In this document: positions 14,556 through 27,642 of the stretch, one piece after another
Numbering within the stretch: position 1 is the first letter of the stretch
Layout: each line of letters begins with the position of its first letter
NCBI GenBank assembly: GCA_020831705.1
Contig: JAFIGB010000416.1
Location: 1-33,174, forward strand
Source: Candidatus Sumerlaeia bacterium
GTDB lineage: Bacteria; Sumerlaeota; Sumerlaeia; SLMS01
Reading direction: 5' to 3'
Length of the DNA stretch: 33,174 nucleotides
Notes under the pieces: model-generated
What the model saw: the letters and a program-made list of their open reading frames with translations, nothing else
What the model was told of the DNA's origin: nothing
Database searches by the model: none
Made by a program: the position numbers and the translations under genes

Positions 14556-15296
14556 ATGAAATGTTACTCCCAGTCCCGTTCCAGATTCACCATGTTCCTT
14601 GCCCTTTTGCTTCTTGGTAGCCCCCTTGTGGCCGTTTCACAAATGACAGGCCCCCAGCCCGCGCCTGCCCCGCAACCAGCGCAAGCCCAGTCACCCACCC
14701 GCGGTGAAGCCATTGAGTTTCTTCAGAAGGTGGAGAGGAAAAACGAGGAAATCAAATCCCTTTCCGCGGAATTTGAACAACTCCGGGTGGACCCGATCTT
14801 CCACGATGAAGTCGAAAGCAAGGGGAAGTTCTGGTATCGAAGCCCCGGCGAATTTCGCGCTTCCTATGATTCCCGCCACCCCGCTGAAATTTGGATTTTT
14901 CCCGATCACCTCATTAACTACAGCCCATCCATCAAACAGGTGGACATCCTTCCCATCGAGCAGGGCGAAAATGCCCCCATCAACCAGATGCTTCTCGGAT
15001 TTGGTGTTAAGACGGAAAGCATCCTGGAAGTCTTCGATGTTGGACTCATCGAGGCGGAAAAGGATGGGCAGGTCGCCATCGAATTCCACTCGCGGGATCT
15101 TGATCGCTCCCTCTATTACAGGAGGATCGTGATCCACTTTCAGGAGGAGAACGCCGAACCCGCCAAGCTCTTCCTTGAGGACGGCGAATCGGAGATCACG
15201 GTAACCATCAGGGGTGTCAAACAGAACCCCGACCTTGACGCGGCCCTCTTTACGCCCAAATGGCCGGACGACGTTGAGGTCATTGACCAAAGATAA
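14556..15296 (+). CDS. lolA: Outer-membrane lipoprotein carrier protein LolA
   Basis: Periplasmic chaperone that takes lipoproteins released by LolCDE to the outer membrane. The 246-residue product has a signal peptide (hydrophobic core FLALLLLGSPLVAV), a Pro/Ala/Gln-rich linker (about 33-47), and then the LolA fold. AIEFLQKVERKNEEIKSLSAEFEQ is the usual first helix and strand. GKFWYRSPGEFRASY (about 90-104), IWIFPDHLINYSP and the strand-rich C-terminal half, including a PAKLFLED segment, fit the family. GGAG before the ATG supports the start. Length is a little above the family norm because of the linker. It is followed by the LptE-like gene, a natural envelope-biogenesis pair. Confidence 0.88.
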   Translation: MKCYSQSRSRFTMFLALLLLGSPLVAVSQMTGPQPAPAPQPAQAQSPTRGEAIEFLQKVERKNEEIKSLSAEFEQLRVDPIFHDEVESKGKFWYRSPGEFRASYDSRHPAEIWIFPDHLINYSPSIKQVDILPIEQGENAPINQMLLGFGVKTESILEVFDVGLIEAEKDGQVAIEFHSRDLDRSLYYRRIVIHFQEENAEPAKLFLEDGESEITVTIRGVKQNPDLDAALFTPKWPDDVEVIDQR

Positions 15297-15395
15297 TTCG
15301 GCACGGAGGGTTGCGCTCCGGCCATGACCCCCTCCAAAATAATAGCCTGCGGCATTGGTCGCGCATATTTCCGAAAGGCCAGGGCCCAACGGGCG

Positions 15396-15977
15396 ATGAA
15401 ATTCTCCAAGAGATTCTACTTCCTTGTCGTTCTGCTCCCCCTCGCAATGACCCTGTTGTCGGCATGCCAACCCGTCGTCAGGGAAAGAACGCTCCCCCCG
15501 TCGATCCGTTCCGTAACGGTTCCAATGGCCGTCAATCGAACCTCCGAGCCGGCCTTTGAGGAATACCTCACCGTTGCCGTCCAGGAGGAATTTGACTTCG
15601 ACGGGCGCCTTCGCCGGGCACGGAACATCCGCGATGCCGATGCCATTATTCGTATTTACGTCACTGACTGGGAGAATTCCTCCTTCGCCATCGATGCCGA
15701 TGGGTTTCCCACCGCCCAGGAATATTCCGTATCGGTTCACGTCCAGATTCGTGAAAATATCCCCGGTCGCCCGATGATCGGACCCTCGCGGGTCATTAAC
15801 GAGGTATACGTCTTCAACGCCGATACCCGGACGACCACCTTCGTGCCGGAACCAAGACGCCGTGAGGAACTTACCCGACGCCTTGCCCGGACAATCGTCC
15901 GCGAGGTCATTACCGGAGATTTCACCGGCATTGAATTACAGGGGCCAGCAGCAGGAGCTCCCATCGTTGTACAATGA
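15396..15977 (+). CDS. lptE: LptE-like LPS-assembly lipoprotein
   Basis: LptE is the outer-membrane lipoprotein plug of the LptD translocon that inserts lipopolysaccharide. From ATG 15396 the 193-residue product has a lipoprotein signal peptide with lipobox LLSAC and Cys24. The following LPPSIRSVTVPMAVNRTSEPAFEEYLTVAVQEEF is the typical LptE beginning: a strand with VPxxxN, then a helix. ADAIIRIYVTDW and the SVSVHVQIRE strands match the rest of the fold. I rejected the in-frame ATG at 15324 because it would bury the signal peptide. The ribosome-binding site is weak. Family assignment rests on layout, so I give moderate confidence for the symbol and higher for a lipoprotein. Confidence 0.75.
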   Translation: MKFSKRFYFLVVLLPLAMTLLSACQPVVRERTLPPSIRSVTVPMAVNRTSEPAFEEYLTVAVQEEFDFDGRLRRARNIRDADAIIRIYVTDWENSSFAIDADGFPTAQEYSVSVHVQIRENIPGRPMIGPSRVINEVYVFNADTRTTTFVPEPRRREELTRRLARTIVREVITGDFTGIELQGPAAGAPIVVQ

Positions 15978-16098: not shown

Positions 16099-18225
16099 AT
16101 GGATATGAACAACGAAGGCGAAAACATCACGGAGGCCACCACGGATTCTCCCGGTTTTTTTTCGCGCTTTGTTACCAGGATGCGCACCAAGCTAATCGTC
16201 CCCTTCGCGACGTTTCTCTACCTTGGTACCATCTTTGGCGGGCTCTATACACTTGAAAACGCCTACTACGTAGTCGACAAGTGGGGTGTCATCCAAAACC
16301 TCCTCACCGAACTTTCCTACATCGACAATGACCAGGCAAACCAGGCCAGCAACGTCGTCAAAAGATATGTCGAAAGCAACTATCGTCGCGTTGAAGCGGG
16401 GAGGACGCTGACTGATGAGGAACGGGAGCGCCATTGGGAGCTCCTCGACCAGGTGTCCGAAAAGCTTCTGGAATCCTCACCGGTCATCACCGGTATGGCC
16501 GTGGAGGACAAGGAAGGAGCGATCCTTTACGAATACCGCGTTCCCGAGCGCGTCTGGGAACAGCATGACTTCACAAACAGTCTCCTGACGAGGAGCTTCG
16601 AGAGAAGCTTCAAGCGGACATTCATCGACGAATCCCGCCAGGCCTATCTCGGCACAATGCGGATATACGTCACGACCGCCAAGGGAAGCCCGGAAATCAC
16701 CGAACTGACAACCAAATACCGGAACTATATGATTATCTTCGTTCTAGGCGTTTCCATTTTGTATTATGGTCTGGTTCGGTCCATCCTCATGCCCCTCAAC
16801 CGTGTCATCGATTCGATCATCAACCGGCAAAGCGGGCGATCCTCCATCATCAAGACGCCACGAACCACGTTGGAGAGGGCCTTCAACCAACTGGCTCGTG
16901 ATGCAACACTGACACGCTTCTCCAAGCAGATGCGCGACGAAATTGCCCACCAGGGGCTTTCCTATGTGGAGCCGCTCCTTGAATTCATTCCCTCACTCAC
17001 CACACGGCTGATTGAATTGCCCGGAACACAGATCTGGGTTCTATCCAGACAGGATGAGAAGGCACCCTGGGATACCGAAAAGGTTTTCGGCAGCAAGTCC
17101 GGTGAAAGCGACAGGGAGCACTTCAAGAAAGTCCTCATGAAGGAAATCGAGGGGGACGATGAAAACCCAATCATGAATTGGGAACCGAAAGTGCTCGCCT
17201 GGAAGGACAGCAAGGAGAAGCAGCGCCTTTCCTTCATCGATATTCTCGATGCCGGATTTGATCGGCTACGCTTTTTCGTCATCCATGGCCAGCCCGGTGA
17301 ATCGGCACCAACCGAGGAGGTCCGGACCTTCTATGGGCGCCTCGCCCAGGAACTGCGCTACGCCCTTGGAAGTGTCGAGGAACAGCGCCGCCTGATCCTC
17401 CAGGAAAAATCCAAGGCGAATATCTCCCTTTCTCGCAACCTGGGCCACGATCTCACGAACATCATCGCAACGAGCAAGCTCGAGCTGATGACAATCAAGA
17501 CGTTCCTTTCCCTCCCCGCGGGAGAGGTTGCCCACTCCCCCGCCAAGGCGGAGATGTTCCGCGAATCACTCGAGGCGCTCCTCAACAACACCCGTTTCCT
17601 CCAGGAAATCGTAAACCTCTACAGAAGTTTCAGCTACCTGCAAAAGCCAAAGTTCGAGCAGATAGACATCAATACCATCATCGTGGATGTCGTCCAGCTT
17701 TATGAATTGTCGCTCTCCAAGAGTTTCGTGATAGAGAAATCCCTGGCGAAAAAACTCCCACCGGTCCGCGTGGAGCCGCGCCTCCTGAGGCTCGCCCTGT
17801 TTAATCTGCTGACCAACAGCACCGATGCCATCAAGAAGGTTGATGGAAATGGGAACCAGAAGGGACGGATCAGCATCAGTTCGGTCATCAACCACAAGCG
17901 CGGTTATGTGGAAATCCGCGTGGAGGACAATGGCCCTGGAATTCGCGACGGAAAGGGGAACCTGTTGGCGACGGACAAGATTCCCGAGATTTTCAGGCTC
18001 GGATATACAACCAAGGACAACCAGGAGGGCGAGGGGCTCGGGCTGAACTGGGTCCAGAACATCGTCCGCGAGTTCCATCACGGTGACATCATCGCGGCAA
18101 ATATCGAAAAAGGGGGCGCGATGTTTGCAATACGAATACCCATCGAGTCTCCCGCAGGGACGGACTCACAGGCCGCAGTTGAAGTAGGCATGGCAACCAA
18201 TTCCAAGGAAAAAGGAGGCTCCTGA
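16099..18225 (+). CDS. Membrane sensor histidine kinase
   Basis: A 708-residue kinase. TM1 lies at about 31-50 (KLIVPFATFLYLGTIFGGLY) and TM2 at about 209-229, enclosing a periplasmic sensor region of about 155 residues. A cytoplasmic region (about 235-430) lacks an obvious HAMP or PAS signature and could be a divergent GAF-type module. The DHp segment has the phospho-acceptor H450 in SRNLGHDLTNII. The ATPase domain has the N box (LALFNLLTNSTDAI, about 565-578), G1 (EDNGPGI, 609-615), an F box (IFRLGYTTK) and G2 (GEGLGLNWV, 644-652), all complete. AAGG precedes the ATG. Its stop overlaps the response-regulator start by one base, so the two are a cognate pair. The stimulus is unknown. Confidence 0.92.
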   Translation: MDMNNEGENITEATTDSPGFFSRFVTRMRTKLIVPFATFLYLGTIFGGLYTLENAYYVVDKWGVIQNLLTELSYIDNDQANQASNVVKRYVESNYRRVEAGRTLTDEERERHWELLDQVSEKLLESSPVITGMAVEDKEGAILYEYRVPERVWEQHDFTNSLLTRSFERSFKRTFIDESRQAYLGTMRIYVTTAKGSPEITELTTKYRNYMIIFVLGVSILYYGLVRSILMPLNRVIDSIINRQSGRSSIIKTPRTTLERAFNQLARDATLTRFSKQMRDEIAHQGLSYVEPLLEFIPSLTTRLIELPGTQIWVLSRQDEKAPWDTEKVFGSKSGESDREHFKKVLMKEIEGDDENPIMNWEPKVLAWKDSKEKQRLSFIDILDAGFDRLRFFVIHGQPGESAPTEEVRTFYGRLAQELRYALGSVEEQRRLILQEKSKANISLSRNLGHDLTNIIATSKLELMTIKTFLSLPAGEVAHSPAKAEMFRESLEALLNNTRFLQEIVNLYRSFSYLQKPKFEQIDINTIIVDVVQLYELSLSKSFVIEKSLAKKLPPVRVEPRLLRLALFNLLTNSTDAIKKVDGNGNQKGRISISSVINHKRGYVEIRVEDNGPGIRDGKGNLLATDKIPEIFRLGYTTKDNQEGEGLGLNWVQNIVREFHHGDIIAANIEKGGAMFAIRIPIESPAGTDSQAAVEVGMATNSKEKGGS

Positions 18226-19496
18226 TGGCAATCAAGGTGCTGATCGTTGACGATAATGAGCTATACAGGACCGCATTCCGCAGAAGCCTCATGATCAAGG
18301 ACTACGATGTGGTTGAGGCAGAAAATGGCTCCCATGCCGTGGAAGTCTATGAAAAGGAAAATCCGGACATCGTCGTGACGGACCTTTCCATGCGCACGCC
18401 AACGGAGGGACTCGACCTGATCAAATCCATCAAGGCCATCGACCCCCTCATTCCCATCGTGATGATCTCCGCCGTCGGCACCTTCGAGGAAGGCTCCCTC
18501 GCCAAGGAACTTGGAGCCGATCGTGTCCTGATGAAGCAGAAGATAGACGAGCATATCGAGGAACTTTTTGACGCCATTGACGGTGCCAAGAAGGTCAGTA
18601 CCCGGCTCCGGGCGCTTCGCGAGGAAATCGGAAAGATGGCCAATGATTCCGAGGAGCTTGGAAAGGAAGCCGTTGAACGCCTCCGCAATATCATCTCCAC
18701 ACCCAACCAGCACCCCGTCATTCTTGCAGAAGCCTACGATGTTCTCGCCGTGGCAAACGCCCGTGAAATCCGGGTTCAGATGGAGCGTGAATATCAAAAG
18801 GCCGGCTCCGGCAACAGCGCCAGCATGGAGGAGGTCGAGACACATCTGAAAAGTATCTTTGACGACCTCAAGAAATTTGACCCGGAGACAGTCAAGGAGC
18901 TTTGCGTGGCGGAATACTTCTACCGCGTTCAGGGAGGAGACATCCCCGAGGGGGAGGACTTCTCGCGCAACATCGGTTTCTCCTACTGCTTCGCCGTGGA
19001 GAACGAGGCAAAGACACGCCTGCGCAAGCGCCTTCAAAGGTTCCTGTCTGACCACTCAAACTTCAAGATCATCCGCAAGCTCATCGATGACAGGACCAAC
19101 CAACTTGATCTTTTTTATCACCAGTACCTGCTGCGCCTCCAACAGCAGATGCCCTTCGATTTCACCATCGACAATGTGCGCCAGGTTTTCCAGCGCGTGT
19201 TGGAACACGAGTCACGCTACAAGCCCGATGGTCTCAAGGCACTCGGTATCATGATTGTCTGCTTCGGCCGCGATTATTCCCTCAAGGCACTCAAGGGGCA
19301 GATCAAGGTCAACAATCCGTTGGGCATCAAGGCATTCGATGACGACATGGAAGTCCTCAAGTTCGCCCACCTGCTTGTTTCCCTCCAACATTATCGCAAC
19401 CCGTATATCCACCCGGAAATCAGCGAAATGGAAAAGATCTCCAAGATTCGCGAAACGACGGTGGACTGCCTCAAGATGATATCCAGGTTGAATTGA
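18225..19496 (+). CDS. Response regulator with long helical C-terminal region carrying a HEPN-type R-X4-H motif
   Basis: The receiver domain is complete (residues 1-120): acidic pair D9/D10, phospho-acceptor D53 in VVTDLS, S82 in MISA and K104. The rest (about 125-423) is not a known DNA-binding output domain: I see no helix-turn-helix, GGDEF, HD or AAA motifs. It is predicted mostly alpha-helical and charged. Near the end, residues 391-396 read R-N-P-Y-I-H (19395-19412), followed by a charged helix (EMEKISKIRETTVDCLKMIS). An R-N-x-x-x-H motif at the start of the last long helix is the signature of HEPN domains, many of which are ribonucleases. This is a motif match only. AAAGGAGG and a one-base overlap couple it to the kinase. 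Confidence 0.88.
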   Translation: MAIKVLIVDDNELYRTAFRRSLMIKDYDVVEAENGSHAVEVYEKENPDIVVTDLSMRTPTEGLDLIKSIKAIDPLIPIVMISAVGTFEEGSLAKELGADRVLMKQKIDEHIEELFDAIDGAKKVSTRLRALREEIGKMANDSEELGKEAVERLRNIISTPNQHPVILAEAYDVLAVANAREIRVQMEREYQKAGSGNSASMEEVETHLKSIFDDLKKFDPETVKELCVAEYFYRVQGGDIPEGEDFSRNIGFSYCFAVENEAKTRLRKRLQRFLSDHSNFKIIRKLIDDRTNQLDLFYHQYLLRLQQQMPFDFTIDNVRQVFQRVLEHESRYKPDGLKALGIMIVCFGRDYSLKALKGQIKVNNPLGIKAFDDDMEVLKFAHLLVSLQHYRNPYIHPEISEMEKISKIRETTVDCLKMISRLN

Positions 19497-19533: not shown

Positions 19534-20622
19534 ATGAAGTTTTTGAGGATTTTCGCCCCCATCATGGCCGTAACCGTTCCGGCGCTGGCCATGCCGATGG
19601 ATTCCGCACAACGCCCCGCCGTTGTCAAGCCGCGGGCCCTTGAACAGGGGGGAACGATTGCCCTCGTGACCCCGGCATCACCCAGCAACGAATACGTCCT
19701 GAGCTTTGTCACGGATTCCCTTGAAAGCCAGGGCTATACAGTCAAGCCCGCGCCCAATGTCCTCAAGCGCGATGGCCATACCGCCGGAACGGATCAGGAG
19801 CGCGCCCAGGCACTGATGGACGCCTTTGCCGATCCCGAGGTCGACGCCATCTTCTGCATCAGTGGCGGATATGGGGTCACCAGGATGCTCCACCTCATCG
19901 ACTTCGATGTGATCCGCGAAAACCCGAAAATCTTCACCGGCTTCAGCGATATCACCGCCATGCACATGGCCATCCAGAGGGAAACGGGACTTGTCACTTT
20001 TCACTCCCCCACCCACAGCCGCACCCTCGGCAAGACCTTCGAGGAGCGCCCGATGCAGGCCGAATGGTTCTGGCGCCTCATTCACGCCGACAGTTATTTC
20101 GACGAGGACGGCAATCGCATCGATGGTATAGATGCCTACCCGACGGAGGACTCAGAGGGCGAACCCGAAACCCTCGTTCCAGGACGGGCCATCGGAAGGT
20201 TGACCGGCGGGAATCTTTCCCTCATTGCCGCGCTCAGCGGAACGCCCTACGACCTCGATGCCGAGGGGGCCATTCTCTTCCTGGAGGATGTCGGCGAGGA
20301 ACCCTACCGTATAGACAGAATGCTTTCCACCCTGGAACTTTCCGGCAAACTGGATCAGCTTTCGGGTGTCGTCATCGGTCGGTTTGCGAGATCGGAACCG
20401 AACAATCCCGACAGAACCTTTACCCTTGAGGAGGTCTTTGAGCGGTATTTCGCCCATCGCGATTACCCCGTCATCTCCGGGTTTCCAACCGGTCATGTTG
20501 TCGACAATGTGACCATCCCCTACGGCATTCTTGCCGAGTTGGATGCCGACAACAAGACGCTGCGGCTCCTTGAAGATCCGGTATTACTTCCCACGATTGG
20601 TTCCACCGATGATCACGAATAA
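19534..20622 (+). CDS. Peptidase S66 family (LD-carboxypeptidase/MccF-like), exported
   Basis: S66 enzymes are serine carboxypeptidases: LdcA removes the terminal D-Ala from murein tetrapeptides, and MccF-type members cleave microcin C. The 362-residue product has an N-terminal signal peptide (MKFLRIFAPIMAVTVPALA), which points to the periplasm, whereas classical LdcA is cytoplasmic. Family motifs: GGTIALVTPASP (39-50), FCISGGYGVTRMLHLIDFD (107-125), the nucleophile S138 in TGFSDITAMH, E251 in FLEDVGEEPYRIDRML and H321 in GFPTGHV, giving the Ser-Glu-His triad. Length is normal for the family plus a signal. It follows the response regulator by 37 bases and overlaps the HAD gene, so it probably belongs to the same transcript. 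Confidence 0.9.
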   Translation: MKFLRIFAPIMAVTVPALAMPMDSAQRPAVVKPRALEQGGTIALVTPASPSNEYVLSFVTDSLESQGYTVKPAPNVLKRDGHTAGTDQERAQALMDAFADPEVDAIFCISGGYGVTRMLHLIDFDVIRENPKIFTGFSDITAMHMAIQRETGLVTFHSPTHSRTLGKTFEERPMQAEWFWRLIHADSYFDEDGNRIDGIDAYPTEDSEGEPETLVPGRAIGRLTGGNLSLIAALSGTPYDLDAEGAILFLEDVGEEPYRIDRMLSTLELSGKLDQLSGVVIGRFARSEPNNPDRTFTLEEVFERYFAHRDYPVISGFPTGHVVDNVTIPYGILAELDADNKTLRLLEDPVLLPTIGSTDDHE

Positions 20623-27566: not shown

Positions 27567-27642
27567 TGGAGCGGGAAACGGGATTCGAACCCGCGACCCT
27601 CAGCTTGGGAAGCTGATGCTCTACCAACTGAGCTATTCCCGC
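27567..27642 (-). tRNA. tRNA-Gly (anticodon CCC)
   Basis: A complete cloverleaf on the minus strand. The acceptor stem is GCGGGAA/TTCCCGC, perfectly paired. The D-arm is GCTC...GAGC, the anticodon stem TCAGC/GCTGA with loop TTCCCAA (anticodon CCC, reads GGG), and the T-arm GCGGG/CCCGT with loop TTCGAAT. The discriminator is T and the CCA end is encoded in the DNA. Length is 76 with CCA. It has its own terminator downstream. Confidence 0.97.

Follow-up and report, generated by a model that had tools for sequence, protein, structure and literature searches.

The regulator locus and its partner kinase

The window, a 33,174-nucleotide stretch of contig JAFIGB010000416.1 from a Candidatus Sumerlaeia bacterium, carries a response regulator gene (18225-19496, + strand) that starts with ATG and encodes 423 amino acids. 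Upstream on the same strand lie genes for a LolA-like outer-membrane lipoprotein carrier (14556..15296; Pfam LolA, E 5e-13), an LptE-like lipoprotein of LPS assembly (15324..15977; Pfam LptE, E 3e-6), which is the next gene before the kinase-regulator pair, and a 708-aa membrane histidine kinase (16099..18225). The order lolA-lptE-kinase-regulator was kept across many Sumerlaeota, and this synteny supports the assignment of the two envelope genes; the lolA-lptE link was limited to part of this phylum and was absent in other lineages. Where it exists, this neighborhood points to the outer envelope as the signal or the target of the system. Downstream, an LD-carboxypeptidase gene of the S66 family (19534..20622, +; Pfam Peptidase_S66) follows the regulator after 37 bases; it was not recovered downstream in relatives and is probably outside the constant part of the locus. 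A HAD phosphatase was also found among the flanking genes. An Rfam search of the whole window detected only one tRNA and no obvious RNA target; the tRNA gene, the sole match, is located at 27570-27642 on the - strand.

The receiver domain occupies residues 1-125 of the regulator (18225..18599, +) and was matched by Pfam Response_reg over residues 5-111 (E 8e-21). The earlier note, made from the letters of this DNA, had described a complete receiver, and a sequence check placed the acidic pair D9/D10, the phospho-acceptor D53, S82, and K104 exactly where it had put them. All five residues were invariant in 44/44 homologues, and comparison with solved receivers gave a VIA-align Z of ~22. The gene product thus contains the acidic pair, phospho-acceptor Asp, Ser/Thr, and Lys that mark a two-component response regulator. 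In the AF2 model, receiver helix 5 extends as a single long helix spanning residues 111-140 and leads into a helical linker (residues 125-210; 18597..18854, +), which was poorly conserved among 30 genomes, scoring 0.34-0.47 per 20 residues with no invariant positions. The region behind the receiver had been described as mostly helical and devoid of any known DNA-binding or cyclic-di-GMP motif; the output was predicted to be all-helical, and no Pfam or NCBIfam family matched residues 124-423. Searches of the output domain against Pfam, NCBIfam, PADLOC, and PDB sequences gave no usable match, and an initial scan of genome contigs with the single regulator sequence as query gave no match. A cyclic-di-GMP or DNA-binding output was considered and rejected, as no family of either kind matched.

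The kinase was identified by its HATPase_c domain (E 1e-15) and carries an H-box, GHDLTN, with H450 (codon 17446-17448), together with the ATPase boxes represented by N569 and D610-x-G-x-G. H450, N569, D610, G612, and G614 were invariant in 24/24 kinase homologues; therefore, both the H-box and the ATPase boxes of a cognate histidine kinase are in place. Its dimerization domain appears divergent, since no Pfam HisKA match was found despite the clear H-box, and a conserved Y-R-x-F block follows. The kinase TGA (18223-18225) and the regulator ATG (18225-18227) overlap by one base, just as had been claimed. Furthermore, all regulator-positive genomes tested also contained the kinase, even those in which the two genes are unlinked, as they are in several lineages. 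Conversely, in other phyla it was absent from 8/8 tested genomes without the regulator, among them five that carry the receiver-less sister family described below. In one case (L078:12511-14442) the kinase gene is located ~6 kb from the regulator gene on the opposite strand, so that the two genes have moved apart but are both retained.

Predicted fold and conserved motifs of the output domain

HEPN domains have been defined by an all-alpha core whose helix 3 closes with Rx4-6H, the R being followed by a polar residue; helix 2 often carries Ex3[KR], and helices 2 and 3 can be separated by inserts (PMC3710099). The HEPN-like output domain of the regulator was assigned to residues 211-423 (18855..19493, +) on the basis of the AF2 model, the best structural matches, and the sister family. 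AF2 modeled the full protein with a pLDDT of 87.5 and the domain alone with a pLDDT of 91 and a pTM of 0.88. The structural ranking given below rests on this second model, whose alignment included loci from the genome search; the first, full-protein model, built from an alignment of related loci only, showed the same layout of helices and motifs. R391 is the last residue of the next-to-last helix (374-391), and H396 lies in the loop preceding the final helix (401-419), so that R391-N392-P-Y-I-H396 (19395..19412, +), which the sequence check found at the position claimed for it, closes helix 3 as an R-N-x3-H motif in which N392 is the polar residue. E259-N-E-A-K263 (18999..19013, +), an Ex3[KR] motif that had gone unmentioned in the earlier note, lies within a long helix (247-275) corresponding to HEPN helix 2. 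Between these two helices, the model contains several helices and a beta-hairpin, at the place where HEPN domains take up inserts. As modeled, the output domain thus resembles a HEPN domain with an unusually large insert.

A Foldseek search of the domain gave no significant match against either the PDB or viral models. However, when Foldseek's best 1000 chains were realigned with VIA-align 2, the first seven rows were all HEPN proteins, drawn from four independent HEPN families. The HEPN domains of Roquin-1/2 ranked at the top (Z 9.1-9.8), followed by archaeal 2q00 (Z 8.9, 114 of 122 residues), the HEPN toxin 7bxo (Z 7.3), and Csm6 6tug (Z 6.9). Among these, Roquin has a confirmed HEPN domain and RNA binding (PMC4614863), and 2q00 is a HEPN-T protein (PMC3710099). 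Vinculin tails came next at Z 6, and two further HEPN proteins, AbiA (Z 6.0) and MtlR (3brj, Z 5.2), were found among these helical bundles. Helical bundles can reach Z ~13 by common arrangement, and the HEPN Z values of the domain fall within that range; the weight therefore comes from the ranking combined with the motif positions, not from the Z values. Whole-protein structure searches returned rows filled by receivers. A prediction unrelated to HEPN had been expected to overturn the original suggestion; instead, HEPN domains were the closest structures, though Foldseek alone was not significant. Taken together, the HEPN reading of the last ~210 residues is supported, and we consider a HEPN fold very probable. 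The suggestion that the HEPN-like part might be limited to the C-terminal end was right in kind, whereas its proposed size of ~120 residues was too small, as the domain covers ~210 residues.

Because an unconserved second R-x4-H, R272-H277, also occurs in the regulator and is not kept in relatives, an R-x4-H motif by itself would amount to no more than chance, and it is conservation that gives R391-H396 its significance. Free variation of R391 and H396 among homologues had been named as a reason to abandon the idea; in fact both were invariant, as were N392 and P393, in 44/44 distinct homologues, and among 30 genomes residues 381-400 contained 13 invariant positions. E259 and K263 were likewise invariant in 44/44 distinct homologues. 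A signature peculiar to this HEPN group, D335-G-L-K338-A339 (19227..19241, +), lies within the insert that separates HEPN helices 2 and 3; in it, D335, G336, K338, and A339 were invariant in 44/44 homologues.

Distribution and a receiver-less sister family

In a search of 386 genomes, the regulator was found in Sumerlaeota and in four genomes outside that phylum. Among Sumerlaeota genomes of at least 90% completeness it was single-copy in 20/20. A second phylum, to which Candidatus Hinthialibacteria OLB16 and genomes labeled Omnitrophota belong, had it in 14/14 genomes. The same 386-genome search detected a weak match (E 5e-7) in an 815-aa receiver-less protein (L177:1821-4268), a member of a sister family present in 47/58 genomes of another phylum. 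Homology of this family to the regulator was supported by blastp (E 6e-8) and by hhalign profile comparison (E 2.8e-12). Its members (L177:1821-4268, L181-L204) are ~700-1000 aa long; their N-terminus is helical and may be repeat-like, and no Pfam family matched them.

The sister family carries the textbook HEPN form QDFRNRAAHEG (RNRAAHE) together with an E-x3-R motif, and the R, N, and H of RN-x3-H as well as the E and R of E-x3-R were invariant in 24/24 members. When the regulator and sister families were aligned, at ~20% identity, 12 columns were invariant: L, A, E259, D335, G336, K338, A339, R349, Q388, R391, N392, and H396. R349, although invariant in this two-family alignment, was not fully so among the 44 regulator homologues. 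Within the RNPYIHPE block, P393, P397, and E398 were not kept in the sister family. Across both families, the motif residues were thus retained while the flanking prolines and E398 were lost, which is the pattern expected of a putative active site. Furthermore, the sister profile scored above 60/60 block-shuffled profiles against HepT and DUF4145, with RN-x3-H aligned. The hhalign profile of the regulator family itself did not rise above shuffles against HEPN (PF05168), HepT (PF01934), or DUF4145, in a comparison with Hpt as control, and none of the HEPN Pfam models matched the regulator output domain.

A candidate RNA-directed output and its alternatives

We consider it fairly likely that this locus encodes an envelope-linked two-component system whose phosphorylation controls an output of HEPN type, either a ribonuclease or an RNA-processing activity. 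The membrane kinase probably senses the outer membrane or envelope, because its neighbors are lolA and lptE. It would phosphorylate receiver D53 and thereby alter receiver pairing; the long helix 111-140 may relay the signal to the C-terminal domains, and two HEPN domains would be brought or released into an active dimeric arrangement. A precedent for such gating is Csm6, in which a sensor domain rearranges the HEPN dimer upon ligand binding (PMC10702470). The site formed by R391, N392, and H396, aided by E259/K263 and perhaps by D335/K338, would then cleave or process RNA. Since the output would act on RNA in this way, the phosphorelay would exert its effect after transcription.

Two readings compete with a ribonuclease output at the level of the domain itself. 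In the first, the output would be all-alpha but have no relation to HEPN; RNPYIHPE would be a structural block, and the domain would act through contacts with protein or by binding DNA. In favor of this reading are the absence of a significant match in the Foldseek searches and of a direct sequence-profile link to HEPN families, as well as the beta-hairpin and large insert. However, four independent HEPN families filled the seven best structural rows, two separate HEPN motifs sit at the correct helices, and the RNRAAHE-bearing sister family beat 60/60 shuffles against HepT and DUF4145. Moreover, the survival of only R, N, and H from the RNPYIHP block in that family would be unexpected if the block were purely structural, and we regard this reading as improbable. 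A domain that is HEPN by descent may, on the other hand, bind RNA or protein without cleavage, with phosphorylation switching the binding. RNA binding with no cleavage is known for some HEPN domains. The structural matches include two regulatory HEPN domains, MtlR and Roquin; that of Roquin binds RNA (PMC4614863), and inactive MtlR has been proposed to do so (PMC3710099). Indiscriminate RNA cleavage by a core regulator would also be costly. The inactive HEPN groups, however, are those that lost the motif, whereas here R, N, H, and E-x3-K were invariant in 44/44 and were kept in a sister family of ~20% identity, as catalysis predicts. Non-cleaving binding thus appears unlikely to us, and we hold a ribonuclease output to be more probable than not.

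A further alternative accepts the nuclease but would have it serve phage defense or a toxin-antitoxin pair, with the receiver borrowed as a switch. Most characterized HEPN proteins do serve conflict systems (PMC3710099), and the earlier note had mentioned toxin and abortive-infection associations, yet the context gave these no support, as the gene is single-copy, near-universal in its phyla, and close to outer-membrane biogenesis genes. Unlike mobile defense genes, it was found once in each of the 20 good genomes and tracks its kinase across phyla. PADLOC gave no consistent match (PDC-M62A in 2/25 members, best E 0.003), the patchy mobile distribution of known anti-phage systems was not seen, and viral contigs contained no relative of the regulator. 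The HEPN-MNT toxin-antitoxin arrangement was not found either, as no nucleotidyltransferase antitoxin is adjacent or fused: the flanks are LptE, the kinase, the S66 peptidase, and the HAD phosphatase, with lolA further upstream. A phage defense role was rejected on distribution, and a conflict role of either kind seems to us highly improbable. Instead, because every well-assembled Sumerlaeota genome has one copy, the regulator looks like a core signaling pathway acting on RNA. Whether it amounts to a core RNA-cutting two-component pathway that several candidate phyla share (Sumerlaeota, Hinthialibacterota-like, UBP4, and probably a fourth), with a possible tie to assembly of the outer membrane, we consider evenly balanced. 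The HEPN group that it would use, marked by the D-G-x-K-A insert signature, is covered by none of the Pfam, NCBIfam, or PADLOC models and extends to the large receiver-less proteins of another phylum.

HEPN superfamily RNases such as HepT/DUF86, DUF4145, PaREP8 2q00, AbiA-CTD, Csm6, and RNase L KEN have the all-helical core in common, and they share with the regulator the R-N-x3-H closing helix 3, the E-x3-[KR] in helix 2, and an insert between helices 2 and 3. The regulator differs from them in its much larger insert, with at least three helices and a beta-hairpin, in its D-G-x-K-A signature, in the lack of a direct profile match, in its fusion to a receiver, and in being a core gene, not a mobile toxin. 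Csm6/Csx1 (CARF-HEPN) proteins likewise fuse a sensor domain to HEPN and switch its dimeric site, but they respond to cyclic oligoadenylate as part of CRISPR immunity, whereas the signal for the regulator would be phosphorylation by the kinase. The mannitol regulator MtlR is also a regulatory, non-toxin protein of HEPN fold, though a weak structural match (3brj, Z 5.2); unlike the regulator, it stands alone, has often lost the motif, and has no receiver. Among response regulators, PorX is a nucleotide-hydrolyzing protein with a PglZ output (PMC12839542). It joins a receiver to a PglZ-type phosphodiesterase in type 9 secretion and resembles the regulator in its enzymatic, oligonucleotide-directed output and envelope-related role; its output nevertheless has a PglZ (nucleotide pyrophosphatase-type) fold, and whole-protein structure searches found only the receiver in common. 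The ANTAR response regulators EutV and NasT also have an output that acts on RNA, but ANTAR is a small RNA-binding domain working in antitermination, whereas the HEPN-like domain of the regulator spans ~210 aa and holds a putative catalytic site. A literature search covering few subscription journals found no description of a receiver-HEPN regulator.

Response regulator outputs act by DNA binding, by making or breaking second messengers, by protein binding, or by RNA binding (ANTAR), and HEPN domains are known mostly from toxins and defense. A HEPN nuclease output, if true, would link phosphorelay signaling directly to RNA cleavage, and HEPN would appear as a conserved housekeeping regulator. 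The point mutants R391A and H396A, together with the switch residue D53, make the claim directly testable. The window's own genome lacks the common HEPN families PF05168, PF01934, and PF13643; several other Sumerlaeota carry many copies of PF05168/PF01934.
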